Notes: generated by a model not told the origin, from the letters alone. A stretch of DNA of 35,106 nt from Clostridia bacterium (GCA_016935835.1 JAFGQE010000085.1:1-35106), one strand, 5' to 3'. Shown: positions 10,902 to 34,224, counted from the stretch's first letter. A program made the numbers and translations.

Positions 10902-12215
10902 ATGAGGCAAAAAAAGAGAATGATAGGCGGGGTCATAACCCCTCATTACAAAAACACTGCTAAGTCTGAAACAAAAATCATGCCCGTTCCCGATAAAGTA
11001 GAAATCCCAATGGTTCACCATATAGGCGCTCCTTGTTTGCCTCTTGTAAAAAAAGGCGACGAGGTGATGGTCGGGACCAAAATAGGCGACAGTGAAAAAT
11101 TTGTCAGCGCCCCGGTGCACTCAAGTGTTTCGGGAACTGTTTCAGATGTAAGAAAAATACTTTTCCCAAATGGCTCGTATGTGGATTCGGTAGTCATCAA
11201 GACAGACGGCAGGCAGACAGTGGACCCGGGAATAAAACCTCCTGAGGTCAATACAAGGGAAGATTTTCTAAAGGCGATCAGGGAATCCGGACTGGTCGGA
11301 CTGGGCGGGGCCGGATTTCCGGCCCATGTCAAGCTAAACCCCCCGAAGGATAAGAAGATCGATTATCTTTTGATAAATGCAGCCGAATGTGAACCATATA
11401 TAACCTCGGACTACAGGGAGACGATTGAGAATTCATGGAATGTTATAAGCGGTATAAACATTGTCATGGAATTCCTCGGAATAGAAAACGTAATAATCGG
11501 GGTGGAGGACAATAAGCCCACAACTATAAAAATACTGAATGACATTGCCGATACAGATAAAAAAATCACAGCGGTGCCATTGAAATCCAAATATCCGCAG
11601 GGTGCTGAGAAAATGCTGATATATGCCCTTACGGGCAGGATTGTTCCGGCCGGCGGACTCCCCATGGATGTCGGGGTCATAGTGATGAACGTCGCAAGCA
11701 TATCCTTCGTCGCCAAATACATGAAGACGGGGATGCCGTTGGTCAGCAAGAGGCTGACGGTTGACGGGGCGGTAATCAGGGAGCCTTCGAACGTGGAGGT
11801 ATGCGTTGGTACGTATATCAGGGACCTTATGGATTTCTGCGGTGGTTTCACGGAAGACCCCTATAAGATACTTATGGGCGGGCCGATGATGGGCGTCGCA
11901 CAATATACCCTTGACATGCCGGTGCTCAAGCAAAACAATGCGATACTGGCATTCAACAAGAAGCAAAGCACCCTGCCGGAGCAGACTGCCTGCATCAGAT
12001 GCGGAAGATGCGTAAGGGCCTGTCCCATGAAATTGATGCCGCAGCAACTGGATATATTCGCAAATTCGAACAACACTGTGCAGCTGGAGAAATTCAACGT
12101 CTCAAGCTGCATTGAATGCGGGACATGCTCATATGTATGTCCGGCGAAAAGGCACCTTGTCCAGGCGATAAGAAAAGGCAAGACACTGGTCAGCATGAGC
12201 AGGCAAAAAAAGTGA
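10902..12215 (+). CDS. rnfC: RnfC, NADH-binding and iron-sulfur subunit of the Rnf complex
   Basis: Peripheral subunit where electrons from reduced ferredoxin reach NAD+. It has 437 residues, the short clostridial form without the long C-terminal repeat tail. The N-terminal GG-containing segment and HIGAPCLPLVKKGDEVMVG form the biotinyl-lipoyl-like domain. VGLGGAGFPAHVKL is the glycine-rich FMN/NADH region of the Nqo1-like domain. Two [4Fe-4S] motifs follow, CIRCGRCVRACP near residue 364 and CIECGTCSYVCP near residue 402. It opens the operon. There is no ribosome binding site before the ATG at 10902 and the -10 box is only six bases away. Either the message is leaderless or translation begins at the ATG at 10920; the family's N-terminal alignment favours 10902. 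Confidence 0.93.
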   Translation: MRQKKRMIGGVITPHYKNTAKSETKIMPVPDKVEIPMVHHIGAPCLPLVKKGDEVMVGTKIGDSEKFVSAPVHSSVSGTVSDVRKILFPNGSYVDSVVIKTDGRQTVDPGIKPPEVNTREDFLKAIRESGLVGLGGAGFPAHVKLNPPKDKKIDYLLINAAECEPYITSDYRETIENSWNVISGINIVMEFLGIENVIIGVEDNKPTTIKILNDIADTDKKITAVPLKSKYPQGAEKMLIYALTGRIVPAGGLPMDVGVIVMNVASISFVAKYMKTGMPLVSKRLTVDGAVIREPSNVEVCVGTYIRDLMDFCGGFTEDPYKILMGGPMMGVAQYTLDMPVLKQNNAILAFNKKQSTLPEQTACIRCGRCVRACPMKLMPQQLDIFANSNNTVQLEKFNVSSCIECGTCSYVCPAKRHLVQAIRKGKTLVSMSRQKK

Positions 12216-12260
12216 AATTTACCCGATATATAAAGCAAATTGAAAAGGCGAGTTCTTGAA

Positions 12261-13190
12261 ATGGCAGAAAACAGACTTATCGTAAACTCTTCCCCGCATT
12301 TGAAAGGCATGAGAAGCACAAGCGGAATCATGCTTGATGTAATAATCGCGCTTATACCTGCAGTAATTCTCAGCGTTTACTTTTTTTCCTATATCGCGGC
12401 GCTGGTAATTTTGGTTTCCGTCGCATCCTCGCTGTTTTTTGAATTCCTATACAATCTGGCATCACATAAAAAACAGACCCTGGGAAACCTGAGCGCCGTT
12501 GTAACCGGCGTGATACTGGCGCTGAACCTTCCGCCGGCAAAATCATCCATATGGATAGCGGCGGTGGGATCTTTCGTGGCGATTATAATAGTAAAGATGC
12601 TGTTCGGCGGACTGGGAAAGAATATATTCAATCCCGCCATGGCGGCAAGGGTTTTCCTTACGGTGTCGTTTGCAGGGCAAATGACGTCATGGTATGCTCC
12701 CGGGGTCGACGGCATCACGTCGGCGACGCCTCTCGCAATGGCGCAGAACGGCATGACGACAGGATATATGGATCTTTTTCTGGGGAACATACCGGGAAGC
12801 CTTGGTGAAACGAGCGCTCTTGCGATTCTCATCGGATTCATATGGCTGATATCAAGGAGAGTCATAACGTGGCATATTCCAACCGCTTTCATTGCTTCCA
12901 CGGCTTTGTTCACTTTTATATTCGGACAGGATCCGCTTTTTCACATCCTGTCGGGCGGGTTGATGCTGGGAGCCGTCTTCATGGCCACTGATTATGTCAC
13001 ATCGCCGACTACATGGAAGGGGAAAATGATATTTGGATTTGGATGCGGACTCATAACAGCGGCAATAAGGGTGTTCGGAAGCCTGCCCGAGGGAGTTTCG
13101 TTCTCCATATTGTTCATGAATGCGGTTGTGCCCCTGATTGACAGGTACACGGTGCCAAAAAGCTTCGGAGAGGTGAAAAAGAATGCGTGA
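12261..13190 (+). CDS. rnfD: RnfD, membrane subunit with covalent FMN
   Basis: Integral membrane subunit of the NqrB/RnfD family with about nine to ten helices, part of the ion-pumping path. The start at 12261 (MAENRLIV) gives 309 residues; the listed ORF begins at an upstream TTG with no better ribosome site. The covalent FMN attachment is visible as T156 in GITSATPLA, the S-x-T pattern conserved in this family. NIFNPAMAARVFL and MATDYVTSP are further family stretches. It follows rnfC by 45 bases and overlaps rnfG by 8 bases, so the operon is translated as a coupled unit. Confidence 0.93.
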   Translation: MAENRLIVNSSPHLKGMRSTSGIMLDVIIALIPAVILSVYFFSYIAALVILVSVASSLFFEFLYNLASHKKQTLGNLSAVVTGVILALNLPPAKSSIWIAAVGSFVAIIIVKMLFGGLGKNIFNPAMAARVFLTVSFAGQMTSWYAPGVDGITSATPLAMAQNGMTTGYMDLFLGNIPGSLGETSALAILIGFIWLISRRVITWHIPTAFIASTALFTFIFGQDPLFHILSGGLMLGAVFMATDYVTSPTTWKGKMIFGFGCGLITAAIRVFGSLPEGVSFSILFMNAVVPLIDRYTVPKSFGEVKKNA

Positions 13191-13728
13191 CATACTGAAA
13201 CCTGCGGTCAGCTTGCTTATTATATGCATCTTCATAACTTTCTCGGTAGCCTTGGTATACAATGTCACCGCTGAAACCATTGCGGAAAGAGAATGGGAAG
13301 CCCTTAACATCGCAATGAATGAGGTTCTTCCGGGCGGAGCGCCGTTTGAAGATATAACGGAAGCTTTTCCCGGGATTTCCGATTCCGGGGGAACGATAAA
13401 GATAACAGGGGCATTCAGGTCTGAAAAGGGATATGTGTTCAACATGATCGCACCGGGATACGGCGGCGATGTAGCGGTGATAATAGGCATAGACGAAAAC
13501 GCAAGTATCAGCGGACTTAGGCTTGGCTCAAATAATGAAACCCCGTCGCTGGGCAAAAGGGCTGAAGAGGAATTCTTCACATCAAGGTTTTTCGGGATAA
13601 ATACAAGTGAAAACATCGGTGACTCGGTTGATTCCATAAGCGGTGTTACCATAACATCCACGGCTGTAAAGAAAGCGGCGCAAAAAGCCTGCGAATATTA
13701 TAATGAATACAAGGGGGGCGGCAGGTGA
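13183..13728 (+). CDS. rnfG: RnfG, covalent-FMN subunit of the Rnf complex
   Basis: Single-helix membrane protein with an extracytoplasmic FMN-binding domain. It has 181 residues. One N-terminal transmembrane segment (about residues 7-26) is followed by the FMN-binding domain. The flavinylation motif is DSISGVTITS, with T156 as the expected phosphoester attachment residue. The usual SGAT is SGVT here, a conservative Ala-to-Val change next to the modified Thr. It overlaps rnfD by 8 bases and rnfE by 4 bases. Covalent flavinylation would need an ApbE-type transferase encoded elsewhere. Confidence 0.93.
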   Translation: MRDILKPAVSLLIICIFITFSVALVYNVTAETIAEREWEALNIAMNEVLPGGAPFEDITEAFPGISDSGGTIKITGAFRSEKGYVFNMIAPGYGGDVAVIIGIDENASISGLRLGSNNETPSLGKRAEEEFFTSRFFGINTSENIGDSVDSISGVTITSTAVKKAAQKACEYYNEYKGGGR

Positions 13729-14384
13729 AGAAGCTTTTCAGGGAATTTACAAAAGGACTTGTAAAAGAAAACCCGATATTCGTGCTTGTTCTCGGCATGT
13801 GTCCTACGCTTGCGGTTACCACCACTGCGGGAAACGGCCTTGGCATGGGAGCTGCGGCGACCGTAGTATTGCTCGGTTCAAACATAGTCATATCCGCATT
13901 GCGAAAGCTAATACCGGACAAGGTAAGGATACCCGCATATATAACTGTGATAGCGGGGTTTGTAACCATTGTACAGCTGTTGCTTAAAGCTTATCTGCCC
14001 GACCTGGACAAAGCCCTTGGCATATTCATACCGCTGATAGTTGTCAATTGCATAATTCTTGCAAGGGCGGAAATGTACGCCAGCAAGAATGGCATTGCGG
14101 GATCCATGGCCGATGCCCTGGGGATGGGCCTTGGTTTTACCGCCGCGCTTTTTATAATCGGGTCGGCAAGGGAAATAATCGGATCCGGCTCGTTCCTGGG
14201 AATGGATGTTTTTGCAGGGGCTCTTCCACCGGCGACTGTTTTCATCCTCCCGCCGGGTGGCTTTCTTGTGCTTGGACTGCTGATGGCACTGTTCAATAAA
14301 ATTTCAAAAAAGAACCCTTCGGCAAAAATGGATTGCGCTTCATGTCCCCTTCACTGCGGCCTGAACAAGGAGGTTGTTGAATGA
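13725..14384 (+). CDS. rnfE: RnfE, integral membrane subunit of the Rnf complex
   Basis: One of the two related RnfA/RnfE membrane subunits that together hold the intramembrane iron-sulfur centre and form the ion path. It has 219 residues and about six helices. The family motif GMCPTLAVTTTAGNGLGMG lies near residues 26-44; its Cys is one of the cluster ligands. VVNCIILARAEMYA is the second Cys-bearing segment, matching RnfA's TNCAVLGVALL. The C-terminal extension of about 20 residues after the last helix carries three cysteines (CASCPLHC), which is more than RnfE usually needs. The start overlaps the rnfG stop as ATGA-type coupling, and its own stop overlaps rnfA in the same way. Confidence 0.93.
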   Translation: MKKLFREFTKGLVKENPIFVLVLGMCPTLAVTTTAGNGLGMGAAATVVLLGSNIVISALRKLIPDKVRIPAYITVIAGFVTIVQLLLKAYLPDLDKALGIFIPLIVVNCIILARAEMYASKNGIAGSMADALGMGLGFTAALFIIGSAREIIGSGSFLGMDVFAGALPPATVFILPPGGFLVLGLLMALFNKISKKNPSAKMDCASCPLHCGLNKEVVE

Positions 14385-14962
14385 GACAGATAATATTTGT
14401 AATCATGGGAACCATATTGGTGGAAAACTTTGTTCTCCAGAAGTTCCTGGGAATATGTCCTTTTTTAGGCGTGTCCAAAAAAATGGACTCGGCAATCGGC
14501 ATGAGCGGGGCGGTTGTGTTTGTCATGACCCTGGCATCGGCGGTTACCTGGGCTGTAAACGAGTACATATTGCTGCCGAATGAACTTGAATTCCTGCGAA
14601 CCATATCATTCATACTGGTGGTCGCCGCCCTTGTTCAGTTTGTTGAGATAATATTAAAGAAATTCATAAAGCCCCTGTATAAATCACTTGGCATTTATCT
14701 GCCGCTGATAACAACAAACTGCGCGGTGCTTGGCGTAGCCCTCCTGAACATCCAAAGGACCTATGGATTCGGGATGTCGGTGCTTTACGGGTTCTCCGCG
14801 GGACTTAGCTTCATGGTGGCATTGATACTATTTTCAGGCATAAGGGAACGGCTGGAGACAGCGGATGTGCCGGATGCATTCAAAGGACTTCCGATAGCAT
14901 TGGTTTCCGCTGCGTTTTTATCGCTGGCATTCATGGGATTCCAGGGATTGTTTTCTTTTTGA
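14381..14962 (+). CDS. rnfA: RnfA, integral membrane subunit of the Rnf complex
   Basis: Partner of RnfE in the membrane core. It has 193 residues with six predicted helices. The signature stretches are FVLQKFLGICPFLGVSKKM near the N-terminus, whose Cys is a predicted ligand of the intramembrane iron-sulfur centre, and LITTNCAVLGVALLN in helix four, which carries the second ligand. The opposite orientation of these repeats in RnfA and RnfE is a family property. Start and stop are both clear; the ATGA overlap with rnfE shows translational coupling. Twenty-two bases separate it from rnfB. Confidence 0.95.
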   Translation: MRQIIFVIMGTILVENFVLQKFLGICPFLGVSKKMDSAIGMSGAVVFVMTLASAVTWAVNEYILLPNELEFLRTISFILVVAALVQFVEIILKKFIKPLYKSLGIYLPLITTNCAVLGVALLNIQRTYGFGMSVLYGFSAGLSFMVALILFSGIRERLETADVPDAFKGLPIALVSAAFLSLAFMGFQGLFSF

Positions 14963-14984
14963 TATTATTTGATTAGGGAGTAGC

Positions 14985-15827
14985 ATGAATTCAAATTTAC
15001 TTACATCTGTAGCATATATCGGGGGACTGGGACTTTTATTCGGAATAATCCTTGCCGTTGCATCGAAGCTCTTCGCGGTTAGGAGGGACAGAAAAGTGGA
15101 AGAAGTGCGCGAAGCGCTCCCGGGCGCGAATTGCGGGGCATGCGGATATTCCGGATGCGATGCGTATGCGGAAGCGGTTGCAGCCGATGAATGTGATATA
15201 ACCCTGTGTACCGTCGGCGGTGAATCCGTATGCCGGGCGCTTGAAAAGATAACCGGGAAGGAAGCGGTCGGAGGAGAAAGAAAAGTTGCCAGGGTTTTAT
15301 GCGGCGGAACACTTGAAAACAGAAAAAAGAGCTTTGAATATTCAGGATTGCAAACCTGTCTGGATGTTCAGATGCTTTACAGCGGCAACAACATATGCGG
15401 ATACGGGTGCCTCGGAATGGGCGATTGCGTCAGGGCGTGCCCGTTCGATGCGATAAGGATGATCGAGGGTGTTGCATTTATTCTGGAGGATAAATGCAAA
15501 AGCTGTGAAATCTGCATCGGGGTTTGTCCAAAGCATATAATTGAAATGGTTCCCGAGAGCGCCGCGGTCACCATAGCCTGCTCGAACAAGGACAAGGGAG
15601 CGGTGGCAATGAAAAGTTGCAAAACTGCTTGCATAGGGTGCGGAAAATGTGTAAAGGCGTGTCCTGTGGATGCCATCGAGGTGAAAGACTTCCTTGCGAA
15701 GATAGATTATGAAAAATGCATCAATTGCGGCAAATGCATAGAAGTCTGTCCTACCAATGCAATTCTAAGATACAATAATAAAAGAAAGAAAATAGTCAGA
15801 AAACCCAAAATAAACGAAGAGGCCTGA
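14985..15827 (+). CDS. rnfB: RnfB, ferredoxin-accepting polyferredoxin subunit of the Rnf complex
   Basis: Entry point for electrons from reduced ferredoxin. It has 280 residues. One N-terminal transmembrane helix is followed by the 4Fe-4S domain NCGACGYSGCDAYAEAV (about 46-62). Four CxxCxxCxxxCP-type clusters come next: CGYGCLGMGDCVRACP, CKSCEICIGVCP, CIGCGKCVKACP and CINCGKCIEVCP. This polyferredoxin form is the clostridial/acetogen type; proteobacterial RnfB is shorter. A GGGAG site lies 5-6 bases before the ATG. It closes the operon, and its stop codon falls inside the terminator hairpin. Confidence 0.95.
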   Translation: MNSNLLTSVAYIGGLGLLFGIILAVASKLFAVRRDRKVEEVREALPGANCGACGYSGCDAYAEAVAADECDITLCTVGGESVCRALEKITGKEAVGGERKVARVLCGGTLENRKKSFEYSGLQTCLDVQMLYSGNNICGYGCLGMGDCVRACPFDAIRMIEGVAFILEDKCKSCEICIGVCPKHIIEMVPESAAVTIACSNKDKGAVAMKSCKTACIGCGKCVKACPVDAIEVKDFLAKIDYEKCINCGKCIEVCPTNAILRYNNKRKKIVRKPKINEEA

Positions 15828-15841
15828 GAGGCCTCTTTTTT
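15817..15841 (+). terminator. Terminator of the rnf operon, overlapping the rnfB stop codon
   Basis: Perfect 9-bp stem AAGAGGCCT/AGGCCTCTT with a three-base loop, then a T-run. The last codons and the TGA of rnfB form the 5' arm and loop, so ribosomes finishing rnfB cover the hairpin. Confidence 0.93.
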
Positions 15842-15976: not shown

Positions 15977-15982
15977 TATAAT
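15977..15982 (+). promoter_or_regulatory. Probable -10 box of the polysaccharide operon
   Basis: A TATAAT preceded by TTGGTG lies 27 bases before the first DUF4330 start. The -35 region is weak. It is the only promoter-like signal before a run of seven tightly packed genes. Confidence 0.5.
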
Positions 15983-16008
15983 AGTTCCTGACGGTTGAAG
16001 GAATCCGA

Positions 16009-16554
16009 TTGCAAAGAACGGCCGTCGGCGGAGGCATGAAATTGAAGATAATTGACAAGGAAATGAAGCTGTTCGGTAAAATAAGCCTGCTGGACATACT
16101 TATTGTCGCAGTTGCCATTGTGATTGTCGTCGCGGCGGTCCGGTATTTCGGCAGCCATGGAACGGGACTGGGGTCCGCCGACACAACCCCGATTGTTTAT
16201 GAAGTCATGATCAAGGAAGTTGACATGGAAACCGCCATGGAAATAAAGGCCGGTTATGAAGTCAGGGACCGGGTCAAGGGATATGAAAGGGGTGTGGTGA
16301 TAAGCGTTGAAATGGTGCTTCACTCCGAGAAAACCACGGACCTGACGACCGGCGCCCAAAGGCTTGAGGAGTATCCGGGCCTTTATGATGCAGTTGTAAG
16401 GATAAAGACGGACGCGGAGGTCACGGACAGATATATAATGCTGTCCGGCAACCGCATGGACATAGGAAAGGAAGCGTACCTTCAGATCGGACCAAACGTA
16501 TACAAAAGCTGGGTTTCGGCAATTGAAATCACGGGGCGGGAGGAAGGCAGATGA
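16009..16554 (+). CDS. DUF4330 family single-pass membrane protein, copy 1
   Basis: Function unknown. It is a DUF4330 protein: an N-terminal IIDKEMKLFGKISLLDI stretch, one transmembrane helix, then an extracytoplasmic beta-rich domain of about 130 residues. Short strands such as KAGYEVRDRVKG and RGVVISVEM follow the helix. The TTG at 16009 has AAGGA 6 bases upstream and gives 181 residues. The ATG at 16036 matches the family N-terminus better, but its GGAGG is only one base away, so the start is uncertain by nine codons. It is the first gene of the surface-polysaccharide operon and overlaps the second DUF4330 copy by four bases. A role in assembling or exporting the polysaccharide is inferred only from position. 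Confidence 0.72.
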   Translation: MQRTAVGGGMKLKIIDKEMKLFGKISLLDILIVAVAIVIVVAAVRYFGSHGTGLGSADTTPIVYEVMIKEVDMETAMEIKAGYEVRDRVKGYERGVVISVEMVLHSEKTTDLTTGAQRLEEYPGLYDAVVRIKTDAEVTDRYIMLSGNRMDIGKEAYLQIGPNVYKSWVSAIEITGREEGR

Positions 16555-17045
16555 AGGAGACAAAAACCAAGGGGAAACTTTTCAGCCGGTTCAATCTTTT
16601 TGATTTGTTCATATTGCTGATAATAATGACTGTTGCGGCGGGGGTCTATTTTGTTTTTATAAAGGACAACGACAATATGGACAAGGAAACCATAAAGGTT
16701 CGTTACGAGCTGTTGCTCGAGGAGCCAAGGAAGGGTCTGTATATCGATGCGTTTTCCCCCGGTGAAAAAGTGTATTTCAAGGAAAGTGACATTTTGATCG
16801 GGACGATCACTGGAATCAAGGTTGACGATGCATGGGAATACGAGGCGGACCTGAACGGCAACTGGGTCAGGGCGAAGACCGAGGGATTTTATAACATCAC
16901 GCTTATAATCGAGGCCGACGCTGTAAGGGCGGGCGACGGATATATAATCCACGGCAACTGGAACGCCTTCAAAGGAACATCAATCGAATTTTCAACCAGA
17001 AGGTATACGACGATCGGAATGGTTGTATCCCTGGAGGAAGAATGA
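16551..17045 (+). CDS. DUF4330 family single-pass membrane protein, copy 2
   Basis: Second, diverged copy of the same family, 164 residues. GKLFSRFNLFDLFILL opens it, then one membrane helix and an outer domain with FSPGEKVYFKESDILIGTI and TIGMVVSLEEE. The PGEKVY...IGTI pattern resembles the strand-turn-strand of substrate-binding beta barrels, which is only a resemblance. Identity to copy 1 is low apart from the N-terminal K-L-F...D-L core, so the pair is an old duplication and probably forms a heteromer rather than being redundant. The start is the ATGA overlap with copy 1, and the stop overlaps the glycosyltransferase-CsaB start by four bases. Confidence 0.75.
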   Translation: MKETKTKGKLFSRFNLFDLFILLIIMTVAAGVYFVFIKDNDNMDKETIKVRYELLLEEPRKGLYIDAFSPGEKVYFKESDILIGTITGIKVDDAWEYEADLNGNWVRAKTEGFYNITLIIEADAVRAGDGYIIHGNWNAFKGTSIEFSTRRYTTIGMVVSLEEE

Positions 17046-19306
17046 CGGGAAAGCGAATACTTATAACTGCCATGGCCCTTGACATAGGTGGAGCCGAGAC
17101 TCATGTAGTTGAGCTTGCAAAAAAGCTCGCAGCTTATGGAAACAAGGTTCTGGTAGCTTCAAACGGCGGTATATTTGTCAAGGAAATAGAAGCGGCCGGC
17201 GTTTTGCACATCAAGGTTCCCCTGCATACAAAAAGTCCAGGCAGTCTCATAATGTCATACAGGATGCTGAGGAAGATAATAATACAAGACAGCATTGACA
17301 TAGTCCACGCCCATGCGAGGATACCGGCTTTCCTGTGCAGCATTCTTTGCAAGAAACTGAATGTTCCTTTTGTGACGACGGTTCACGCCGAATTCAGGAC
17401 ATCGATTTTCTTCAGGGCATTCACCCGATGGGGAAGCCACACGCTGTCTGTAAGCAAGGATATTAACGAATATCTTATAAAGAATTATAATTATGATCCT
17501 GCAAGGGCCGGGCTTACGGTAAATGGGATTAATGAAGAAGTCTTTTATCCAAGGGAGCCTGAGTCCGCCATACTGGGGGAATATAACATCAAGAAAGACG
17601 ACTTCATATTGACTACGATATGCCGGCTTGACAAAGGAAGTTCGAGAACGGTGTTTCTTCTGATGGATATTGCCCAGGAGCTAAGCGAGAAAATAGAGAA
17701 CCTCAGGATTTTTATAGTCGGCGGGGGCAGCCTGTATGACAGATTTCATGAAAAGGCTTTGGCGATAAATAAAAGGAGCGGACGGGGCCTTATAACTATG
17801 ACGGGCCCCAGAAGCGATGTTGAAAAGATCCTGTCCGTCACGGACATATTCACTGGAATAAGCAGGGCGGCGCTGGAAGCAATGGCAATGAGGATTCCCG
17901 TGGTGCTTTGCGGCGATTTCGGATACCTTGGGATCATGAATGAAAAGAACAGGGAAAAGGCCATAGAAACCAACATGACGTGCCGGGGAACGGCTGAACC
18001 CGAGGCTGGCAAACTCAAAGCAGACATACTGCTGCTATATGCCTCGGCGCAGACAAGGGAAGGAAACGCCGACCTGAATTATGAAACGGTCAGGAAGTAT
18101 TACACGGTTTCCAGAATGACCGATGACGCGGTGATGCTGTACAAGAGGGCGCTTAATGGGATGACATCCCCGCCGGGCTACTATCATGCCGTCATATCAG
18201 GATATTATGGATTTGAAAACAGCGGCGACGAAGCTATGCTCTCGTCCATAATCAAAGATCTGAAAAAAGCAAAAAATGACATACGGCTCCTGGTTCTTTC
18301 AAAGCGGCCTTCAGAGACAACGGCGGGCCATGGCGTCGCTTCCATCGGAAGGGCCAACCCTTTTTCCATTTCCAGGGCATTTGGCAAAACGGGAATGCTG
18401 ATCAGCGGAGGCGGAAACCTGATTCAGGACCTTACAAGCTTCCAGTCCATGCTTTACTACACGGGCCTGATGAATTATGCAAAGTACAGAGGCCTTAAAG
18501 TAATGATGTACGCCAATGGAATAGGGCCGCTGAAAAGAAAGACATCGGTTGCAATAGCCGCGAAGGTTCTTGACAAGGCTGACATTATAACCGTGAGAGA
18601 AAAAAATTCATATGACATGCTGGGGGAAATCGGTGTTTCAAAACCGGTTATAAGCATTACGGCCGACCCTGTCATGAGCTTTGAAAATCCACAGAGCGAC
18701 CGTGTCAGGGAGGCCCTTGAAAAACATGGAATACCCGGGGATGAAAGGACAGTCGTTATTTCGGTCCGCCCCTGGAAAGGGCTGGAAAGCGCATTTGCAT
18801 CCGTGTTTGCCGAAATCGCGGATTATATGTCGATGAAATATGGCCTTCTGCCTGTTTTCATATCCATGAATATCAAGAAGGATACAAGGGTTTCGGAGGA
18901 TATTATACAAAGAATGAAGTCAAGAGCCCTTCTTGTAAAGGATGAAGCAAATGCCATGAACCTTATCAGCATTATTTCAAAAGCAGAGATACTTGTCGGC
19001 ATGAGGCTTCACTCCCTGATATATGCGTCGCTGACCGGAACGCCCGGAATAGGCATAGTATACGATCCAAAAGTCAGGTATTTTATCGAAATGATGGAGC
19101 AGGTCGACGGGGGGCTGGTTGAAAATCTGAAATTTGAAGATATCAGCGGTACAATAGACCACATAATGTCCAACAGGGACGAATATGAAAAAAGATGCCG
19201 GGAAAACATGGTCAGGCTAAGGGCTCGGTCAGCTGAAAACGCAAGAATAGCCATTGATCTTCTTGAAAGGGATTCGGTAGTGCGGAAATGGATAGGAAAG
19301 CCATAA
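17042..19306 (+). CDS. Fusion of GT4 glycosyltransferase and CsaB-like polysaccharide pyruvyl transferase
   Basis: Two complete enzymes in one 754-residue chain. Residues 1 to about 370 are a GT-B glycosyltransferase: DIGGAETHVVELAKKLAAYG at the N-terminus, VHAHARIPAFL, then the donor-site segment RAALEAMAMRIPVVL. Residues from about 380 on are a CsaB-type pyruvyl transferase: SGYYGFENSGDEAML, SGGGNLIQDLTS, and the conserved VGMRLHSLIYASL near the end. CsaB transfers pyruvate from phosphoenolpyruvate to the secondary wall polysaccharide that anchors S-layer-homology proteins. A single chain would couple sugar addition and ketal formation at the cytosolic membrane face. The gene is coupled to its neighbours at both ends. 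CsaB is normally a separate protein of about 370 residues. Confidence 0.85.
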   Translation: MTGKRILITAMALDIGGAETHVVELAKKLAAYGNKVLVASNGGIFVKEIEAAGVLHIKVPLHTKSPGSLIMSYRMLRKIIIQDSIDIVHAHARIPAFLCSILCKKLNVPFVTTVHAEFRTSIFFRAFTRWGSHTLSVSKDINEYLIKNYNYDPARAGLTVNGINEEVFYPREPESAILGEYNIKKDDFILTTICRLDKGSSRTVFLLMDIAQELSEKIENLRIFIVGGGSLYDRFHEKALAINKRSGRGLITMTGPRSDVEKILSVTDIFTGISRAALEAMAMRIPVVLCGDFGYLGIMNEKNREKAIETNMTCRGTAEPEAGKLKADILLLYASAQTREGNADLNYETVRKYYTVSRMTDDAVMLYKRALNGMTSPPGYYHAVISGYYGFENSGDEAMLSSIIKDLKKAKNDIRLLVLSKRPSETTAGHGVASIGRANPFSISRAFGKTGMLISGGGNLIQDLTSFQSMLYYTGLMNYAKYRGLKVMMYANGIGPLKRKTSVAIAAKVLDKADIITVREKNSYDMLGEIGVSKPVISITADPVMSFENPQSDRVREALEKHGIPGDERTVVISVRPWKGLESAFASVFAEIADYMSMKYGLLPVFISMNIKKDTRVSEDIIQRMKSRALLVKDEANAMNLISIISKAEILVGMRLHSLIYASLTGTPGIGIVYDPKVRYFIEMMEQVDGGLVENLKFEDISGTIDHIMSNRDEYEKRCRENMVRLRARSAENARIAIDLLERDSVVRKWIGKP

Positions 19307-20853
19307 AAACAATAGGCTTCATGATGGCCGTAACGCTTGTAAGCAAACTCCTTGGCCTTGTAAGGGAGGTTTTCCTTGCCAGCTATTACGGAGCCGGACT
19401 CGAGGCGGCCGCCTTCTCCACCGCAGCCGACATACCCTTGAAATTTTTCGACCTGGCTTTTGGGGCGGCCGTTACATCCACGTTCATACCTGTATTCAAC
19501 AAATATCTGAAAAATGACGATGATTCCGGCGGGTTTTTATTCGCATCCAGATTTATAAACCTTATTTTTATATTGACGACGGCACTGGCGGTGCTGGGAA
19601 TGGTTTTCTCGAATCAGCTTATATCGCTCTTTCTGCCCGGGGGCAGTTCCCAGGTAAGGGAACTTGCGGCGCGTCTTCTTGTAATTCTTTTCCCTACCGC
19701 AATCCTGGCCGGCCTGACCTTCTCGATGATAAGCATTTTGCAGTCCATGAAGCAATTTACTGTTCCCGCAATGATAAGCCTGTTCCCAAACCTGATAACG
19801 ATAGGATATTTGATTTTTTTGAACAAACGTTTTGGCATAACGGGACTGGCGGTTGCATTTCTTTTGTCATGGGGGCTGCAGGCATTGATACAATTGCCTT
19901 TCATCAGTAAAAAGGGATTTGTCTATACTCCTTCCGTCAGCCTGAGGGACGCCGGCATAAGGAGTGTTTCTAAAATGGCGCTGCCTATACTTGTAAGCTC
20001 GTGGGTGCAGCCGGTATCGCTCTTCATGCTGGGTGCCTTTGCATCTTTTGCCGGGGATGAGTCGGTCGCCGCGATTAAATACGCCAACAGGCTTTATTTG
20101 ATCCTGGCGGGAATATTTGTATTCGCCATGATGAATTACCTTTTCCCGCTTATGTCAAGGCAGGCGGATGACGCTATTGCGGAAGATTATAAAAACACTT
20201 ACAGAAGGGCATTTGAAAATCTTTGTTTCTTTATCATCCCGCTTGCGCTGGCTGCATTCCTGCTCAGCCCGGCCTTGATTTCCATCGTATATGAAAGAGG
20301 CGCGTTCAATGAAGCCGCCTCCGGGCTTACAGCAAATGCTTTTGCTGGGTTTTCGCTGGCGATATTCGGATTTTCCCTGTATGAAATCACATCCAAGGCC
20401 TATTATGCGACAAGGAATGTTATTGCCCCAACAATAGCTTCGCTGATCGCATTGGCCGTTACATTCTCGTTGTCAGCGGCGGCTGTGTTCTGGCTGGATC
20501 TTGGAATAGGTTATATTAGCCTGTCATTTTCAATCGGCATAACGGCCGCGGCGATAACCCTGGTATTTATGTTCAATAAAAAAATGAATGGCCTTTTAAA
20601 GGGCAGAAGCATCGCGGAATTGCTTAAAAGCCTTTTGTCGGCGCTTTTTATGGGAATTGCAATATACTTAATTAAAATCATGGCAATTGACGGGGCGGCC
20701 AGGGAATTCTGGCCAAAGCTTGCGTTAACAATGGTTGCAGCGGTTTCGGGGGCGGCTGTTTATTTGATTTCCATGGCATTGTTGAAATCGCCGACATTCG
20801 CATATTATTACAAATGGGCGGAGCTAAAATTAAAGGGGAGGACGGACGGATGA
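19288..20853 (+). CDS. murJ: MurJ-type lipid II / polyprenyl-linked glycan flippase (MOP superfamily)
   Basis: Integral membrane flippase with about 14 helices, 521 residues. TLVSKLLGLVREVFLASYYG at the N-terminus, DIPLKFFDLAFGAA and the Arg/Lys-bearing loops of helices 1-2 are typical of MurJ/MviN. The later SLYEITSKAYYATRNVIAPT is another conserved MurJ stretch, with the Arg in YYATRN. The start lies 19 bases inside the preceding gene. In this operon it may flip the polysaccharide's undecaprenyl-linked intermediate instead of, or as well as, lipid II; a housekeeping murJ elsewhere in the genome would support that reading. The sequence itself looks like MurJ rather than Wzx. Confidence 0.88.
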   Translation: MDRKAIKTIGFMMAVTLVSKLLGLVREVFLASYYGAGLEAAAFSTAADIPLKFFDLAFGAAVTSTFIPVFNKYLKNDDDSGGFLFASRFINLIFILTTALAVLGMVFSNQLISLFLPGGSSQVRELAARLLVILFPTAILAGLTFSMISILQSMKQFTVPAMISLFPNLITIGYLIFLNKRFGITGLAVAFLLSWGLQALIQLPFISKKGFVYTPSVSLRDAGIRSVSKMALPILVSSWVQPVSLFMLGAFASFAGDESVAAIKYANRLYLILAGIFVFAMMNYLFPLMSRQADDAIAEDYKNTYRRAFENLCFFIIPLALAAFLLSPALISIVYERGAFNEAASGLTANAFAGFSLAIFGFSLYEITSKAYYATRNVIAPTIASLIALAVTFSLSAAAVFWLDLGIGYISLSFSIGITAAAITLVFMFNKKMNGLLKGRSIAELLKSLLSALFMGIAIYLIKIMAIDGAAREFWPKLALTMVAAVSGAAVYLISMALLKSPTFAYYYKWAELKLKGRTDG

Positions 20854-22742
20854 GCAGCATGATAATAAACGGACTGTCCGGCCTTTGGCTGAGGACCGAT
20901 AAAATAATACGAAGCAGTTTAACCTTCCGGCTGTTTACGATTGCATCGGATTTCATTGCAAGAGTCGCAAAGGGAAGTTTTATATATCGATATTTTACAA
21001 AGCCGGTGAAGTATGAAAACCCGGCTGTAAAAAGAAGCCTGGCATATAGGGCGCTTGCTTATGCATCCGGGAAATCGTCCGGATTTTTAACCAGGGCGGC
21101 CAACCGGCTGGCGGCTGCATTAAGAAGCAGTGTTATCCTTGCAAGAACCCATGACTTTTTTTTCAGAATTCATCTCCAGCCAACAAGAACGATAGGGCTT
21201 GCAACAGCGGCTGCGGCTGCGGCAATTTTGGCTTTGTCCGCAATTTTTATAAAAACATCTGTTTTGACCATTGCGGCATCGGCTTTTCTTGGGGTTGTCT
21301 CACTATTATTGTTTGTGTCTGGAAATACGCTTTGGGGGATAATTTGTGAAAGCATGACTTTCAGAATGTTTTTCGGGTCAACTTGCCCTTCTTTCGAAAA
21401 TGGCGGGAAACATTTGGAAAAATCCCAAAGACACCATATAATACCCGTCATGCTGGGAATCCTTGCAGGTTCCTTTTTGGTGTTTTTGCCTCCTTTATAT
21501 GCCGTGGCGGCAATTGCGGCGATACTGGGAATTCCAATGGTAATTGTCCGGCCGGTGACCGGTCTTGCCGCGCTGGCTGTTTCACTGGCCTTTATTCCGA
21601 CAACGGCGGCTGCAGGACTGATAATCGTTATCTGGGCCGGGGTTTTGCTTAATGCCGTTACGGGACGGATATCGTTAAGAGATGCATTTTTAAAAGGAAG
21701 GGCGGCCCTGGTATTTATTCTCATTATTCTTTCAGGAGGACTCATCTCGTTTGCCATTGCCGAAAGCATGCCGATAGCACTCATCTATATGCTTTTCATA
21801 TCGGCGGTTTTCCTGTTCATCATTCTTGTCAAAACCAAGGTTTTGCTGAAATCGTTGGTTTTATCAATTGTTCTGTCAGCACTGGGAACGGGGGTTATCG
21901 GTGTTTACCAATATGTCTCGGGGAATATTGAGATTGGCTGGATTGATTCTGAAATGTTCGAGGGCATGGTCAGGATTTACTCGACTTTTGAAAATCCAAA
22001 TGTATATGGAGAATATCTGCTTCTTGTAATTCCATTGTGCCTTGCACTGTTCTTTGGATCCGTCCGGAAGACATATAAGGTTTTCTGGATGGGGACCGGC
22101 ATTGTTCTGGCCGTCGCACTGCTGATGACAATGTCGCGGGGTTGCTGGATCGGCCTTGCAGCCGGAATAATACTATATTTTATAATAGCCGACAGGAGGT
22201 TCCTGTGGGTTTTGCCAATTGCCCTTGTCGCAATGCCTTTCGTGCTTCCGCAATCCGTACTCTCAAGGATCATGAGCGTGGGAAACCTTGAGGATTCGTC
22301 ATCTCTTTACAGGCTTTACATATGGCTCGGAACCTTTTCGATGCTCAGGGATTACTGGTTTACCGGGGTCGGCCTCGGGCCAAAGGCTTTCAGCGGGATT
22401 TACTCGGCATATGCATATAACGGGGTTCCCGCGCCGCATGCGCATAATCTTTTTCTTCATGTATTGAGTGAAACCGGAATCGCCGGATTGCTGGGGTTGA
22501 TCTGGGTATCGCTGACGGGATATAAAAACAGCATATCGACTTCTTTGAAAAAAAGAGGGTTTGATTTGCACCTGGGGGCCGCCTTGGCGGCTTCAATGAC
22601 AGGGTTCATTGTACAGGGCATGTTTGACAATGTATTTTATAATTACCGCGTATATCTTATGTTCTGGATAATAATCGCCTTTGCATATTCATATGCCCTG
22701 GCAGGTAAAAAAGGAAGTGTGGCTGATAATGAGCAGGATTAA
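20850..22742 (+). CDS. O-antigen ligase/polymerase-like membrane protein (Wzy/WaaL family)
   Basis: Polytopic membrane protein likely to polymerise or ligate the polysaccharide outside the membrane. I start it at 20850, the ATGA overlap with murJ, with GGGGAGG 8 bases upstream, giving 630 residues; the listed start 36 bases earlier has no ribosome site. The first 120 residues are basic and amphipathic and probably cytosolic. About a dozen helices follow. The ligase-family signatures are FENPNVYGEYLLLVIPLCL, MTMSRGCWIGLAAGI, and the large outer loop ending VPAPHAHNLFLHVLSETGI, whose His residues correspond to the catalytic region. It overlaps the next glycosyltransferase start by 14 bases. Confidence 0.83.
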   Translation: MSSMIINGLSGLWLRTDKIIRSSLTFRLFTIASDFIARVAKGSFIYRYFTKPVKYENPAVKRSLAYRALAYASGKSSGFLTRAANRLAAALRSSVILARTHDFFFRIHLQPTRTIGLATAAAAAAILALSAIFIKTSVLTIAASAFLGVVSLLLFVSGNTLWGIICESMTFRMFFGSTCPSFENGGKHLEKSQRHHIIPVMLGILAGSFLVFLPPLYAVAAIAAILGIPMVIVRPVTGLAALAVSLAFIPTTAAAGLIIVIWAGVLLNAVTGRISLRDAFLKGRAALVFILIILSGGLISFAIAESMPIALIYMLFISAVFLFIILVKTKVLLKSLVLSIVLSALGTGVIGVYQYVSGNIEIGWIDSEMFEGMVRIYSTFENPNVYGEYLLLVIPLCLALFFGSVRKTYKVFWMGTGIVLAVALLMTMSRGCWIGLAAGIILYFIIADRRFLWVLPIALVAMPFVLPQSVLSRIMSVGNLEDSSSLYRLYIWLGTFSMLRDYWFTGVGLGPKAFSGIYSAYAYNGVPAPHAHNLFLHVLSETGIAGLLGLIWVSLTGYKNSISTSLKKRGFDLHLGAALAASMTGFIVQGMFDNVFYNYRVYLMFWIIIAFAYSYALAGKKGSVADNEQD

Positions 22743-23865
22743 AATAGTACATGTCATAACGGATACCAATATCGGGGGGGCGGGAAAGGTCCTGGAGAAT
22801 TATCTGTCTTGCTTTGACAGGGAAAAATTCGACATTTGCGTCGTTCTCCCGAGAAAAAGCACCCTTGCCGGAATACTTAAGAAAACACAAGCAACGGTGG
22901 TTGCCTTCGATGGGCTTAAGGGAAAGTCCATTGATATATTCTCCATAGTCCCGATGATCAGACTTTTCAAGAAACTGAAGCCGGATATAGTCCATACCCA
23001 TGCAAGTTTTACTTCAAGAATAGCCGCCCGCCTGTATGGAAAGTGCAGGATAGTATATACAAGGCATTGTGTATACCCGCCGTCGGGATTGATGAAAAGC
23101 CTTCCCGGGAAAATTGCCGGCAGGATGGTGTCTGCCCTTTTCTCGGATGCGGTCATTGCCATATCGCCGGCAGCCGCACAAAATTTGAGGGACACAGGAA
23201 TTTCGAAAAGGCGAATTCATGTAATGATGAACGGGACTGCGCCGCTCAAGCAGCTAACACCGGATGAAAAGGAAAATATAAGGGAAAAATACAAGATAGC
23301 GAAGGAAGACCGCGTGGCGGGCACGGTAAGCAGACTTGAACCGGACAAGGGTTTGCAATATTTCATCGAGGCTGCAAGAATCTGCCTGAATGAAAACAAG
23401 TGTATAAAATTCATTATATCCGGCAGCGGAAGCATGGAAAAGGAATTGAAGGATATGAGCGCCGATATGGAGGGCTCCATGATTTTCACGGGTTTTCTTG
23501 ATGATGTCTCGGAGACCGTAAATATCATCGATGTTTTTGTAAATGCCTCATATGGCACCGAAGCCTCCAGCATCTCGATACTTGAGGCGATGAGCCTTGG
23601 AAAACCGGTTGTGGCTACAAATTACGGGGGGAATCCATACCAGGTTGCCGACGGAGAAACGGGGCTGATCGTCCCGGTTAAAGATTCAGGGGCGATTGCA
23701 AAAGCCATACTTAAACTGCTGTCCGACAGGAATGCATACGACAGGCTTTCTGAAAATGCGGCAAGGGAATATAATATGAAATATACGGCGGATGCGATGA
23801 GCAGGAACATAGAGAAAATTTATATTGAGCTTGCTGGCACACGAAGGAAAAGAAGAGCTCTCTGA
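22729..23865 (+). CDS. GT4 family glycosyltransferase
   Basis: Cytosolic, membrane-associated GT-B retaining glycosyltransferase. The start at 22729 (MSRIKIVHVITD) gives 378 residues; the longer listed ORF begins inside the polymerase gene with a TTG. The N-terminal domain has TNIGGAGKVLENYL and DIVHTHASFTSRIAA. The C-terminal donor domain has GTVSRLEPDKGLQYFIEAA and the E-x7-E motif in TEASSISILEAMSLGKPVV. This is typical of enzymes adding a sugar to undecaprenyl-linked or capsular intermediates. The sugar donor cannot be predicted. It lies downstream of the polymerase and 21 bases upstream of the hydrolase. Confidence 0.87.
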   Translation: MSRIKIVHVITDTNIGGAGKVLENYLSCFDREKFDICVVLPRKSTLAGILKKTQATVVAFDGLKGKSIDIFSIVPMIRLFKKLKPDIVHTHASFTSRIAARLYGKCRIVYTRHCVYPPSGLMKSLPGKIAGRMVSALFSDAVIAISPAAAQNLRDTGISKRRIHVMMNGTAPLKQLTPDEKENIREKYKIAKEDRVAGTVSRLEPDKGLQYFIEAARICLNENKCIKFIISGSGSMEKELKDMSADMEGSMIFTGFLDDVSETVNIIDVFVNASYGTEASSISILEAMSLGKPVVATNYGGNPYQVADGETGLIVPVKDSGAIAKAILKLLSDRNAYDRLSENAAREYNMKYTADAMSRNIEKIYIELAGTRRKRRAL

Positions 23866-23886
23866 AAAGGGGGCCGGGAGGCGGTT

Positions 23887-25755
23887 ATGTTCGAAAGATT
23901 TTTAGACGGGTACAGAAACCCTGAATATGAGCTGAACGATTTCATTGTCAGAAAGGCAATGGAAAAGCTCGAAGAAGAAGAAAAGGCAAAGGATAAGATC
24001 AAGACTGTAATTGAATGGGAGGAAAAAAGCAAGGAAATAAAGGACGGTTTCCTTGAATCAATAGGCGGGCTTGATTTTGAAAAATGCGAACTGAATCCAA
24101 TATATACCGGCGATATAAAAAAGCCGGGGTACATGATAAGAAAATTAATATTCCAAAGCATACCCGGATTTTATGTAACGGCCAACCTGTACATTCCCGG
24201 AAGCATTGAAAAACCTGTTCCCGCAATCCTGTTTTCCTGCGGGCACAGCAAGCCGGCCAAAGCCGAGCCAACGTACCAGCTGGCGGCGATTGAGCTGGTG
24301 CAAAACGGCATGGCGGTCCTGTGCGTCGACCCGCCCGGACAGGGAGAGATGATCCAGCTTCCGGACAGGGAGGACATAGACTGGGGGGTGCATGAGCATT
24401 CATACATGGGATTAAGCTGCACGCTGGCAGGAATGAATATAGCAAGGTACTTCATATGGGATCTTGTCAGGGCCCTTGATTTTCTTGAATCCCTTGACTT
24501 CGTCGACAAGGACAAAATCGGGGCGACCGGCAACTCGGGAGGGGGAACGCAGACGTCCTATATTTCACTGGTGGATGACAGGATAAAGGCCGCGGCGCCC
24601 GGATGCTACCTTAACGGCAGGAAGCAATATATTGTAAAGGGACATGCGCATGACAGCGAGCAAAATATTTTCGACTGCATGGGATTCGGACTTGATTACG
24701 GGGATTTCATAAGCTGCTTTGCTCCAAAGCCATTCACTGTACTTAGCCAGCAATATGACTTTTTCCCGATAGAAGGAGCCCTCTATTCGGTTAAAAGGGC
24801 AAAAAGAATATACGCACTTTATGGAAAGGAAGAAAATGCCGGGATTGTGATCGACAAGGAAATGCACGGGTTGTCTGATGTGCTAAGACGTGCCACGGCG
24901 GAATTTTTCACACGGCACTTCTTGAACAGGCCGTGCGACAAGGATATCAATCCTTACGAGCATGTTCTGGGAGAGGATGAACTAAAATGCACAGGCAGCG
25001 GTCAGGTTGTTTCGGAGTTTTCCGACGCCTTGTCGCTGGACAAGCTGATTTATGCGGATTACATTAAAAGAATCACAAGGAACGAGGCCCTGGAAGACAG
25101 GGTGCGTCATGCATTCAATATCAGGGATCATAAGAGGCGCCCGTTGGAAAGACGAATCAATCCATTTGATTTCGAAGGACGCATGGCGGAAAAAGTATTT
25201 TGGCTGTCGGAAGATGAAGTGTCAAATTCCGGAATTTATATAAACGGCAAGCCCACGGGGTATGTGACATATATGTTTTTCGAAGATGGAACGCATGATA
25301 TGGCAGCCAATAAAAAAGATATCGCCTCCATGTTAAACCGCGGGGATGTATTCGTCGTTGATGTAAGGGGAACAGGCGCGGTCAAGGGAGCCCGGATAAA
25401 CAATGCCCCCTATAACGGCATGTATGGCACGATTCATAAAATGAACAGCGACGCGATCATGTGCGGTACATCGCTCATGGAGATGAGAATTAATGATATT
25501 ATGCAAAGCCTGCTTCTTGCGGAGAAAAAAATTAATGCCGTATCATATGGAAATGCAGGGATTCCCGTACTTATTGCGGCATTTTTAAATCCACGCATAG
25601 AAAGCCTCAGGATTGAATCGGCCCCTGTTTCATTCGGGGAGATCATGGGATGCAGGGCTCCGTTTGACCCGGGAATTGAATCATTCGCAATGGCAAGGGC
25701 ATTTGATTGCGACGAACTGCGCGCAGCCATGGAGAAGGACGGACGATTGAAATAA
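23887..25755 (+). CDS. Two-domain alpha/beta hydrolase (acetylxylan-esterase-like), second domain inactive
   Basis: The N-terminal half (about 1-350) is a complete alpha/beta hydrolase of the acetyl xylan esterase / dienelactone hydrolase type. AILFSCGHSKP is the oxyanion strand and CVDPPGQGE follows it. The nucleophile elbow is TGNSGGG with S217; likely D291 and H327 complete the triad. The C-terminal half (about 400-622) repeats the fold: VFVVDVRGTGAVKG matches the D-P-P-G-Q-G strand, and the elbow reads YGNAG, with Ala557 where Ser should be. There is no signal peptide, so it is cytosolic. A GGGAGG site precedes the ATG. Last in the polysaccharide operon, it might remove acyl groups from wall precursors or from imported glycans; both are inference. 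Confidence 0.78.
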   Translation: MFERFLDGYRNPEYELNDFIVRKAMEKLEEEEKAKDKIKTVIEWEEKSKEIKDGFLESIGGLDFEKCELNPIYTGDIKKPGYMIRKLIFQSIPGFYVTANLYIPGSIEKPVPAILFSCGHSKPAKAEPTYQLAAIELVQNGMAVLCVDPPGQGEMIQLPDREDIDWGVHEHSYMGLSCTLAGMNIARYFIWDLVRALDFLESLDFVDKDKIGATGNSGGGTQTSYISLVDDRIKAAAPGCYLNGRKQYIVKGHAHDSEQNIFDCMGFGLDYGDFISCFAPKPFTVLSQQYDFFPIEGALYSVKRAKRIYALYGKEENAGIVIDKEMHGLSDVLRRATAEFFTRHFLNRPCDKDINPYEHVLGEDELKCTGSGQVVSEFSDALSLDKLIYADYIKRITRNEALEDRVRHAFNIRDHKRRPLERRINPFDFEGRMAEKVFWLSEDEVSNSGIYINGKPTGYVTYMFFEDGTHDMAANKKDIASMLNRGDVFVVDVRGTGAVKGARINNAPYNGMYGTIHKMNSDAIMCGTSLMEMRINDIMQSLLLAEKKINAVSYGNAGIPVLIAAFLNPRIESLRIESAPVSFGEIMGCRAPFDPGIESFAMARAFDCDELRAAMEKDGRLK

Positions 25756-25784: not shown

Positions 25785-25813
25785 TGGAAAAACATCAGTC
25801 GCGTTGTTATAAT
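25785..25813 (+). promoter_or_regulatory. Promoter of the tdk operon
   Basis: A perfect TATAAT with the weak -35 TGGAAA seventeen bases upstream. It lies 30 bases after the hydrolase stop codon. I see no convincing terminator between the two genes, so read-through from the polysaccharide operon is possible. Confidence 0.5.
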
Positions 25814-33600: not shown

Positions 33601-34191
33601 AAAATCAACCAGGCTTTTTAAATCATCATAATCCATTACTTCGATTTTCTGGAATTCATGGGAAGTCCTGAACCCGTCGAAGAAATGCAGGAAGGGAATG
33701 CTGGATTTAATTGCACTCAGATGAGCTATACCGCCGAGATCCATTACTTCCTGCACTCCTCCCGAGGCAAGGAGTGCGAATCCAGTCTGGCGCGTGGCCA
33801 TTACGTCGGAATGGTCCCCGAAGATGGAGAGCGCATGCCCGGCGACGGCGCGGGCGCTTACATGAAACACCCCGGGAAGAAGTTCGCCGGATATCTTGTA
33901 CATATTTGGAATCATCAAAAGAAGTCCCTGCGAGGCCGTGAATGTTGTCGTCAGCGCGCCTGCCTGCAAAGAACCATGCACCGTGCCGGCCGCACCGGCT
34001 TCCGATTGCATCTCGATTACCTTGACTTCCTGCCCGAATATGTTCTTCTTTCCGGCAGCCGCCCACTCATCCACAAACTCCGCCATGTCGGATGAAGGGG
34101 TTATTGGATAAATTCCCGCAACTTCCGTAAATGCATAGGCTATATGCGATGCGGCGTTGTTTCCGTTCATGGTTTTAAAAACCTTGCCCAT
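30655..34191 (-). CDS. nifJ: Pyruvate:ferredoxin (flavodoxin) oxidoreductase, single-chain
   Basis: Cytosolic homodimer that converts pyruvate and CoA to acetyl-CoA and CO2 while reducing ferredoxin. The start at 34191 has AAGGAG upstream and gives 1178 residues, normal for NifJ; the listed extra 14 residues are not coded. Domains run in standard order: the TPP pyrimidine-binding domain (MNGNNAASHIAYAFTEVAG, IYPITPSSDMAE), the gamma domain near 420-640, the two-cluster ferredoxin domain (CIQCNQCAYVCP near 691 and CTGCGNCAQVCP near 745), and the C-terminal TPP domain (CAGCGETPYL, GGDGWAYDIGFGG, FDTEVYSNTGGQ). All cluster cysteines are present. It is a one-gene transcript. Reduced ferredoxin from this enzyme is the expected fuel for the Rnf complex in the same window. 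Confidence 0.97.
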   Translation of the reverse strand: MGKVFKTMNGNNAASHIAYAFTEVAGIYPITPSSDMAEFVDEWAAAGKKNIFGQEVKVIEMQSEAGAAGTVHGSLQAGALTTTFTASQGLLLMIPNMYKISGELLPGVFHVSARAVAGHALSIFGDHSDVMATRQTGFALLASGGVQEVMDLGGIAHLSAIKSSIPFLHFFDGFRTSHEFQKIEVMDYDDLKSLVDFEAIRKFRAKSLNPEHPVLRGTAQNPDIFFQAKEAVNRYYETIPEIVEGYMKEISRITGRTYNLFDYIGCEDAERLVIAMGSVCDTIEETVDKMCENGEKVGLLKVRLYRPFSIKHMMAAIPASVKKISVLDRTKEPGAQGEPLYLDVRSAFYNKKNAPLIVGGRYGLGSKDTTPEQIVAVFENLSADEPKDGFTIGINDDVTHLSLKTGSHFDASPKGTVSCKFWGLGSDGTVGANKNTIKIIGDHTDMYAQAYFSYDSKKSGGITVSHLRFGKKPIKSTYLISRADFVACHQPSYVDKYEMVQDVKPGGTFLLNTGWTPEELDSHLPAAMKQYIAKNNIDFYTIDAIGIADSIGLGGRINMVMMSAFFKLAKVIPIDDAVKYMKKAIVDSYGKKGEKIVKMNNDAVDLGIEKIIKVNVPSGWASAVDDSTPVDYNVPDFIENVANVMNAQKGDTLPVSTFMDRADGTFPSGTTQYEKRGIAINVPEWQIENCIQCNQCAYVCPHAVIRPVLVSKEESSKAPAGFETKPAIGKGLEGIGFRIQVSPLDCTGCGNCAQVCPSKDKALIMKPQESQHNQIENWNYSQSLSEKPNPMSKFTVKGSQFEKPYLEFSGACAGCGETPYLKLITQLYGDRMMIANATGCSSIWGGSAPSTPFAVDSDGCGPAWANSLFEDNAEYGLGMHLAVEQMRSRIEDLSEKLIETNVCDCIKEGARGWIDARFDGEASKAAKEKYIDALTSCMKDCKIDDATKQIVDELIEKQEFMVKRSQWIVGGDGWAYDIGFGGLDHVLASGEDVNVLVFDTEVYSNTGGQASKASPAGSVAKFAAAGKPIKKKDLGMMLMSYGYVYVAQVAQGANQAQFIKAVKEAESYHGPSIIIAYAPCINHGIRAGMGCSQLQEKNAVEAGYWHLYRYNPMLREEGKNPFVLDSKEPTASFREFIMSENRYASLTRSFPDRAEVLFEKTENDAKERYEGYKKLSES

Positions 34192-34224
34192 ATTGTTTCT
34201 CCTTAATATATATTCATATTTCAC

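Follow-up and report, generated by a model that had tools for sequence, protein, structure and literature searches.

DUF4330 proteins, which occur in at least 23 families of Bacillota, are almost confined to loci encoding a Wzy/WaaL-type membrane enzyme, and the link is strong. We propose, with a probability of roughly 0.55, that DUF4330 is a dedicated bitopic membrane partner of this Wzy/WaaL-fold enzyme, which would assemble a pyruvylated, SLH-anchoring secondary cell wall polysaccharide. The pathway itself is known; the new part is the partner protein DUF4330 together with an extra domain of the polymerase. The proposal draws on directly computed features (i.e., protein families, gene linkage, co-occurrence with CsaB, tandem pairing, natural fusions, fold predictions, domain fission, and the absence of Wzz), from which DUF4330 may be either a scaffold or an analogue of a co-polymerase. 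The polymerization and bringing together of SLH-anchoring wall polymers is an admitted gap (these steps "remain elusive" according to PMC6801904), and a constant polymerase partner plus a splittable, unannotated polymerase domain provide concrete proteins for the study of wall-polymer assembly.

The seven-gene operon and its genomic context

In the window (i.e., the whole 35,106-nt stretch of Clostridia DNA that was analyzed), seven co-directional genes occupy positions 16009 to 25755 of the + strand, and the family of each is supported by Pfam and NCBIfam matches. The first two encode the DUF4330 proteins D1 (TTG start at 16009 or ATG start at 16036, end at 16554; Pfam E = 5.9e-21) and D2 (16551 to 17045; Pfam E = 6.5e-18). 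They are followed by a fusion of a GT4 glycosyltransferase with a CsaB ketal-pyruvyltransferase (17042 to 19306; TIGR03609, 265.7 bits against a cutoff of 213.1; Glyco_transf_4, E = 7e-25), a MurJ-family flippase (19288 to 20853; TIGR01695, 288.7 bits against a cutoff of 235.6), a polymerase or ligase of the Wzy/WaaL family (start at 20814 or 20850, end at 22742; Wzy_C, E = 1.6e-22), a second GT4 glycosyltransferase (about 22729 to 23865; Glycos_transf_1, E = 4e-39), and an AXE1-like alpha/beta hydrolase (23887 to 25755; Pfam E = 5e-9). All the parts of a Wzx/Wzy-type pathway (i.e., the MurJ flippase, the Wzy_C/WaaL-fold enzyme, and the GT4s) are therefore present. The D1/D2 and D2/GT4-CsaB junctions are 4-nt ATGA overlaps, and the GT4-CsaB and MurJ genes overlap by 19 nt. 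The MurJ/Wzy overlap is likewise 4 nt (ATGA) provided that Wzy begins at the ATG at 20850, the start that we favor because it places a conserved Ser at residue 3. An overlap of 14 nt joins Wzy to the second GT4 gene, and a gap of 21 nt separates the latter from the hydrolase gene.

The chain of seven genes and the names given to them in the first-pass annotation are thus borne out by the open reading frames (ORFs), the family matches, and the overlaps or short gaps. The weight that it had placed on DUF4330 as the first gene applies to this locus only, since DUF4330 elsewhere sits between GT4 and Wzy. Its inclusion of the terminal hydrolase among the wall-polysaccharide genes did not stand up. 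This protein resembles acetyl-xylan esterases and 6goc_A (E = 2e-13), its sequence contains no transmembrane (TM) or signal-like segment, and the only other DUF4330 locus at which it was found (L059) belongs to the same genus. The hydrolase is predicted to be cytoplasmic, genus-specific, and outside the conserved module. We dropped it as a wall esterase because it has neither export features nor conservation, and a passenger or metabolic gene is more likely than a wall enzyme.

Upstream of the operon lie the rnfCDGEAB genes, closed by an intrinsic terminator after rnfB (15817 to 15841, + strand; a perfect stem AAGAGGCCT-gag-AGGCCTCTT and then a T-run), which is predicted to separate the rnf operon from the DUF4330 operon. 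A TATAAT sequence (gttggtgTATAATag; 15977 to 15982, + strand), located exactly where the first-pass annotation had begun the operon, is a candidate -10 box. At the other border, a promoter-like site (25785 to 25813) and a 192-nt gap precede tdk. The stem of the rnfB terminator was also found on the other strand.

SLH-domain proteins elsewhere in the genome, suggested at the outset as a check, are present (six matches on three contigs). The genome also carries one LCP protein gene and a further MurJ, seemingly divided between two contig ends (C4 and C162). The anionic polymer (PSII) locus of C. difficile contains mviN/murJ (PMC4973711); given this precedent and the further MurJ elsewhere, the MurJ of the operon may be dedicated to the wall polymer.

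Linkage of DUF4330 to Wzy/WaaL, GT4, and CsaB genes

We examined three sets of DUF4330 loci, i.e., 32 loci from relatives in the same class, 80 loci from a pattern scan of named genomes, and 39 loci from a phylum-wide, even sample of 200 genomes, 43 of which (from 23 families) were DUF4330 positive. The pattern scan used a 10-row subset of the alignment, the 36-row alignment A1 being too diverse, and neighboring ORFs were called with profiles built in this analysis. The sets share some genomes and are thus only partly independent, and the pattern scan is biased toward the LFGKIN motif. A Wzy/WaaL ORF is present no more than 6 kb from DUF4330 at 29/32 class, 73/80 pattern-scan, and 37/39 phylum loci and no more than 2.5 kb away at 28/32, 72/80, and 35/39 loci, respectively. 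In the two phylum loci without Wzy (L176 and L181), the contig is short or the locus lies at its end. With roughly two Wzy_C genes across the 2.3 Mb of the window genome, chance adjacency is expected to be on the order of a percent.

GT4, DUF4330, and Wzy usually follow one another in this order, and their stop-to-stop frames overlap or almost do so; GT4 directly precedes DUF4330 in 93 cases, and DUF4330 directly precedes Wzy in 85. The downstream GT4 of the window (22729 to 23865) belongs to the family that is normally found directly before DUF4330. CsaB is located within 6 kb of DUF4330 at 12/32 class, 42/80 pattern-scan, and 25/39 phylum loci, and the corresponding counts for MurJ are 16/32, 26/80, and 9/39. 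Other recurrent neighbors are a UDP-sugar dehydrogenase, a TagO/WecA-type transferase, DUF5693, and LCP (near about 9 loci), a set that fits a wall-glycopolymer locus. A scan of viral contigs found no relatives. An apparent DUF4330-Wzy fusion at locus L142 was dismissed because the join spans a stretch of N.

Within the class, a strong CsaB match was found in all 31 DUF4330-positive genomes and in 8 of the 29 DUF4330-negative ones (60 genomes; Fisher P = 5e-10; P = 1e-8 with one genome per genus). In the phylum sample, all 43 DUF4330-positive genomes have CsaB (P = 1.5e-4), which by itself is a weak test because approximately 83% of the sample carries CsaB. Most CsaB-positive genomes of the phylum have no detectable DUF4330; since these and 8/29 DUF4330-negative relatives manage without it, DUF4330 is not universally needed. 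The association of DUF4330 with wall-polysaccharide genes that had been anticipated from the window alone was thus recovered by the survey, with Wzy nearly always adjacent and CsaB in every DUF4330-positive genome examined. DUF4330 had also been suggested to be a structural partner of the assembly or export machinery. The constant Wzy and GT4 neighbors strengthen the assembly part of this suggestion, while the much less constant MurJ weakens the export part.

DUF4330 proteins and the N-terminal domain of the Wzy-like enzyme

D1 and D2, the sole DUF4330 genes of the window genome, match PF14221 over its full length (75.8 and 65.9 bits against a gathering threshold of 27.6; profile positions 2 to 163 and 6 to 166 of 167). 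An AlphaFold (AF2) model of D1, based on an alignment of 102 DUF4330 sequences, predicts a TM helix at residues 18 to 39 and an all-beta ectodomain at residues 51 to 165 (pLDDT, 89 overall and approximately 97 in the ectodomain). The model had no match at E ≤ 1e-3 among PDB and viral structures, and a DUF4330 profile/sequence search of the PDB also gave no match. Judged against these structures, the predicted ectodomain would represent either a new or a very divergent fold. An MCE/MlaD-like domain, an early idea from a look at the sequence, was abandoned, as no MCE entry is among the 50 best Foldseek matches in the PDB.

The nearly invariant residues of DUF4330 are F13, G14, and D20, located in the juxtamembrane and early TM region, and four ectodomain glycines. 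The best-conserved stretch is the cytoplasmic juxtamembrane motif KGKLFGKINIID, and the Asp opens the TM helix. Among the conserved ectodomain positions of the alignment, no catalytic-looking residue was found, and only glycines are nearly invariant. This pattern points to a structural or binding function rather than to catalysis.

At tandem DUF4330 loci, the nearest neighbor of a sequence holds the same position in 60 of 66 cases (10,000 permutations gave a mean of 33 and a maximum of 53), so the D1 and D2 types are old, order-preserving lineages and not recent duplicates. The kept order is as would be expected for a hetero-oligomer, and the tree suggests that pairing arose more than once. 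A natural GT4-DUF4330 fusion is encoded on one MAG contig only (L109:8414-9991), and two proteins (at L086 and L069) have double ectodomains on a single TM helix each. These forms support probable contacts of DUF4330 with GT4 and of ectodomains with each other.

The only PDB fold match of the Wzy core in the Foldseek search was the O-antigen ligase WaaL (7tpg; E = 8e-6; TMt = 0.68), and the family keeps invariant Arg and His residues. Wzy and WaaL are members of a single superfamily, so this match fails to separate a polymerase from a ligase, and the window enzyme may act as a ligase instead of a polymerase. Residues 1 to approximately 175 match no Pfam family. This region has conserved Ser residues at positions 3, 23, 43, 63, and 94 (89 to 98% of the aligned sequences), each just preceding a predicted helix (beginning at 4, 24, 44, 64, and 95), and a further one at position 168 (66%). 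The domain is thus predicted to consist of Ser-capped helices of about 20 residues followed by a TM hairpin. A strict regular expression for the Ser repeat matched 0 to 4 times per protein, the alignment-column count being the better evidence. Loci with a short Wzy (approximately 450 amino acids; e.g., L124 and L133) have a separate ORF of approximately 180 amino acids between DUF4330 and Wzy, which is homologous to the N-terminal domain (172 aligned columns; hhalign E = 1.2e-17). This occurrence of the Ser-repeat domain in cis or in trans is further evidence, at the sequence level, for one complex.

Assembly model, alternatives, and related systems

The mechanism that we propose would begin in the cytoplasm, where GT4 and GT4-CsaB would assemble a repeat on undecaprenyl-PP and add pyruvate to it. 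The MurJ-family protein would flip this repeat, and the Wzy-like enzyme would link the repeats outside. Docking of DUF4330 to the GT4/Wzy complex would rely on the conserved juxtamembrane motif KGKLFGKINIID, with its Asp where the TM helix begins. The paired beta ectodomains would lie over the extracellular face of Wzy, where they would steer the chain as it grows or gauge its length. On the cytoplasmic side, their counterpart would be the Ser-repeat domain, whether part of Wzy or a separate protein. An LCP protein would act last and attach the chain to peptidoglycan. We infer the physical complex, the docking, the steering or measuring of the chain, and the order of the steps.

Wzz proteins and other polysaccharide co-polymerases have two TM helices that flank an extracytoplasmic domain. 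DUF4330 is not a Wzz: it has a single TM helix followed by an all-beta ectodomain, and its sequence does not match the Wzz family (D1 and D2 matched PF14221 only and gave no match to PF02706). No Wzz-family protein was found in the window genome, and none was found near DUF4330 in its 31 DUF4330-positive relatives; the sole Wzz match on a DUF4330 contig is megabases away in a single-contig genome (G035). These observations suggest a machine without the usual Wzz length regulator, in which DUF4330, unrelated to Wzz, could take the part that Wzz plays in Gram-negatives. The absence of Wzz beside DUF4330 is no proof of replacement; the wall-polymer pathway may need no Wzz. Wzy-Wzz complexes have been demonstrated experimentally (PMC10030265 and PMC12004945), and these pairs share with the proposed system a membrane polymerase and a dedicated partner that bears an extracytoplasmic domain. 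More tentatively, and at somewhat less than even odds, the DUF4330 pairs and the Ser-repeat domain of Wzy would constitute an undescribed class of co-polymerase, unrelated to Wzz and with a new ectodomain fold, for the pyruvylated wall polymers of Bacillota (and perhaps Cyanobacteria).

DUF4330 is unlikely to be a glycan-binding protein that hands the chain from Wzy to the LCP ligase, or that serves another wall-attachment step, with no control over polymerization. An all-beta extracytoplasmic domain on a single TM helix, the LCP genes near some loci, and the LCP gene of the window genome would all suit such a role; however, LCP is an occasional neighbor while Wzy is nearly constant, and no known glycan-binding fold is among the PDB and viral structure matches. 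We also doubt that the Wzy-like enzyme works as a ligase of the WaaL type and moves completed chains as a whole onto an acceptor that DUF4330 chooses or positions. The sole PDB fold match is a ligase, and a profile match agrees with it, but the match does not discriminate within the superfamily, the published models of csaB clusters use Wzx/Wzy (B. anthracis, PMC6801904), and the operon contains no second obvious polymerase. It is quite improbable that DUF4330 mainly anchors or recruits the cytoplasmic GT4, with little part for the ectodomain in polymerization. Although GT4 is its commonest direct neighbor, one natural fusion joins the two, and the cytoplasmic motif is the best-conserved stretch, the ectodomain is long, conserved, and predicted with confidence to be folded, forms with two ectodomains on a single TM helix exist, and the Wzy linkage is no weaker than the GT4 linkage. 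A partnership with the MurJ-family flippase, which shares the operon here, is very improbable given how much less often MurJ than Wzy lies within 6 kb of DUF4330.

A role for DUF4330 as partner of the Wzy/WaaL-fold enzyme can be set against known systems. The S-layer cluster of B. anthracis has a Wzy-like gene, and a Wzx/Wzy model is described for it (PMC6801904). The csaB pathway of B. anthracis and P. alvei, a type defined also by pyruvylated ManNAc in the wall, shares with the window CsaB, a Wzy-like protein, glycosyltransferases, and SLH proteins in the genome, while the window operon adds DUF4330, an in-operon MurJ-family flippase, and the Ser-repeat domain of Wzy, none of which is named for the csaB pathway in the passages of PMC6801904 that were consulted. 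A search of papers available without subscription found none that names DUF4330. The window enzyme shares the Wzy core fold with WaaL (7tpg), but it has extra N-terminal helical repeats and a wall-polysaccharide rather than a lipopolysaccharide context. The PSII locus of C. difficile resembles the operon in having a MurJ-family flippase within a wall-glycopolymer locus; however, PSII is a ligand of CWB2 and not SLH proteins, and PMC4973711 does not mention a polymerase. In Cyanobacteria (slr0688), a pyruvylated, peptidoglycan-linked polysaccharide binds SLH outer-membrane proteins (PMC9163127), i.e., a pyruvylated, SLH-binding wall polymer as proposed here. S. elongatus has DUF4330, CsaB-like, and SLH matches and is a possible, harmless test organism for DUF4330.

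Architecture and distribution of DUF4330

Among the DUF4330 loci of other genomes, one MAG encodes a GT4 glycosyltransferase and DUF4330 in a single frame (L109:8414-9991), i.e., a natural fusion, while two other DUF4330 proteins (L086:9995-10858 and L069:9980-10876) carry two serial ectodomains after a single TM helix. The family is also carried by Brevibacillus, one Deltaproteobacteria MAG, and one Coriobacteriia MAG (L090, L138, and L141), and a control search gave a DUF4330 match in S. elongatus.

Recurrent neighbors and wall-polysaccharide genes

Approximately 20 loci encode, near DUF4330, a protein of ~224 aa (e.g., L140:5162-5833) with a TM-like N terminus and a possible coiled coil; its only Pfam match was weak and subthreshold. 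A DUF5693 protein found near DUF4330/CsaB at ~13 loci (e.g., L160:12755-14692) is another uncharacterized protein, probably tied to the DUF4330/CsaB wall-polysaccharide pathway.

Long Wzy polymerase/ligase proteins have an unannotated N-terminal domain of Ser-capped, ~20-residue helical repeats (window, 20850-21380), which is encoded elsewhere by its own gene beside a short Wzy (e.g., L124:10494-11036, L133:8869-9411, and L098:10499-11047). Two partial MurJ matches in the genome of the window, both at contig ends (the starts of C4 and C162), appear to be pieces of one additional murJ gene that the assembly divided between the two contigs.

Terminal hydrolase and energy metabolism

The cytoplasmic AXE1-like hydrolase that ends the operon (23887-25755; closest solved relative, 6goc) is probably a genus-specific passenger. 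Pyruvate:ferredoxin oxidoreductase (30658-34233, minus strand) and the rnf operon (10902-15827) together indicate an anaerobic, ferredoxin-based energy metabolism.
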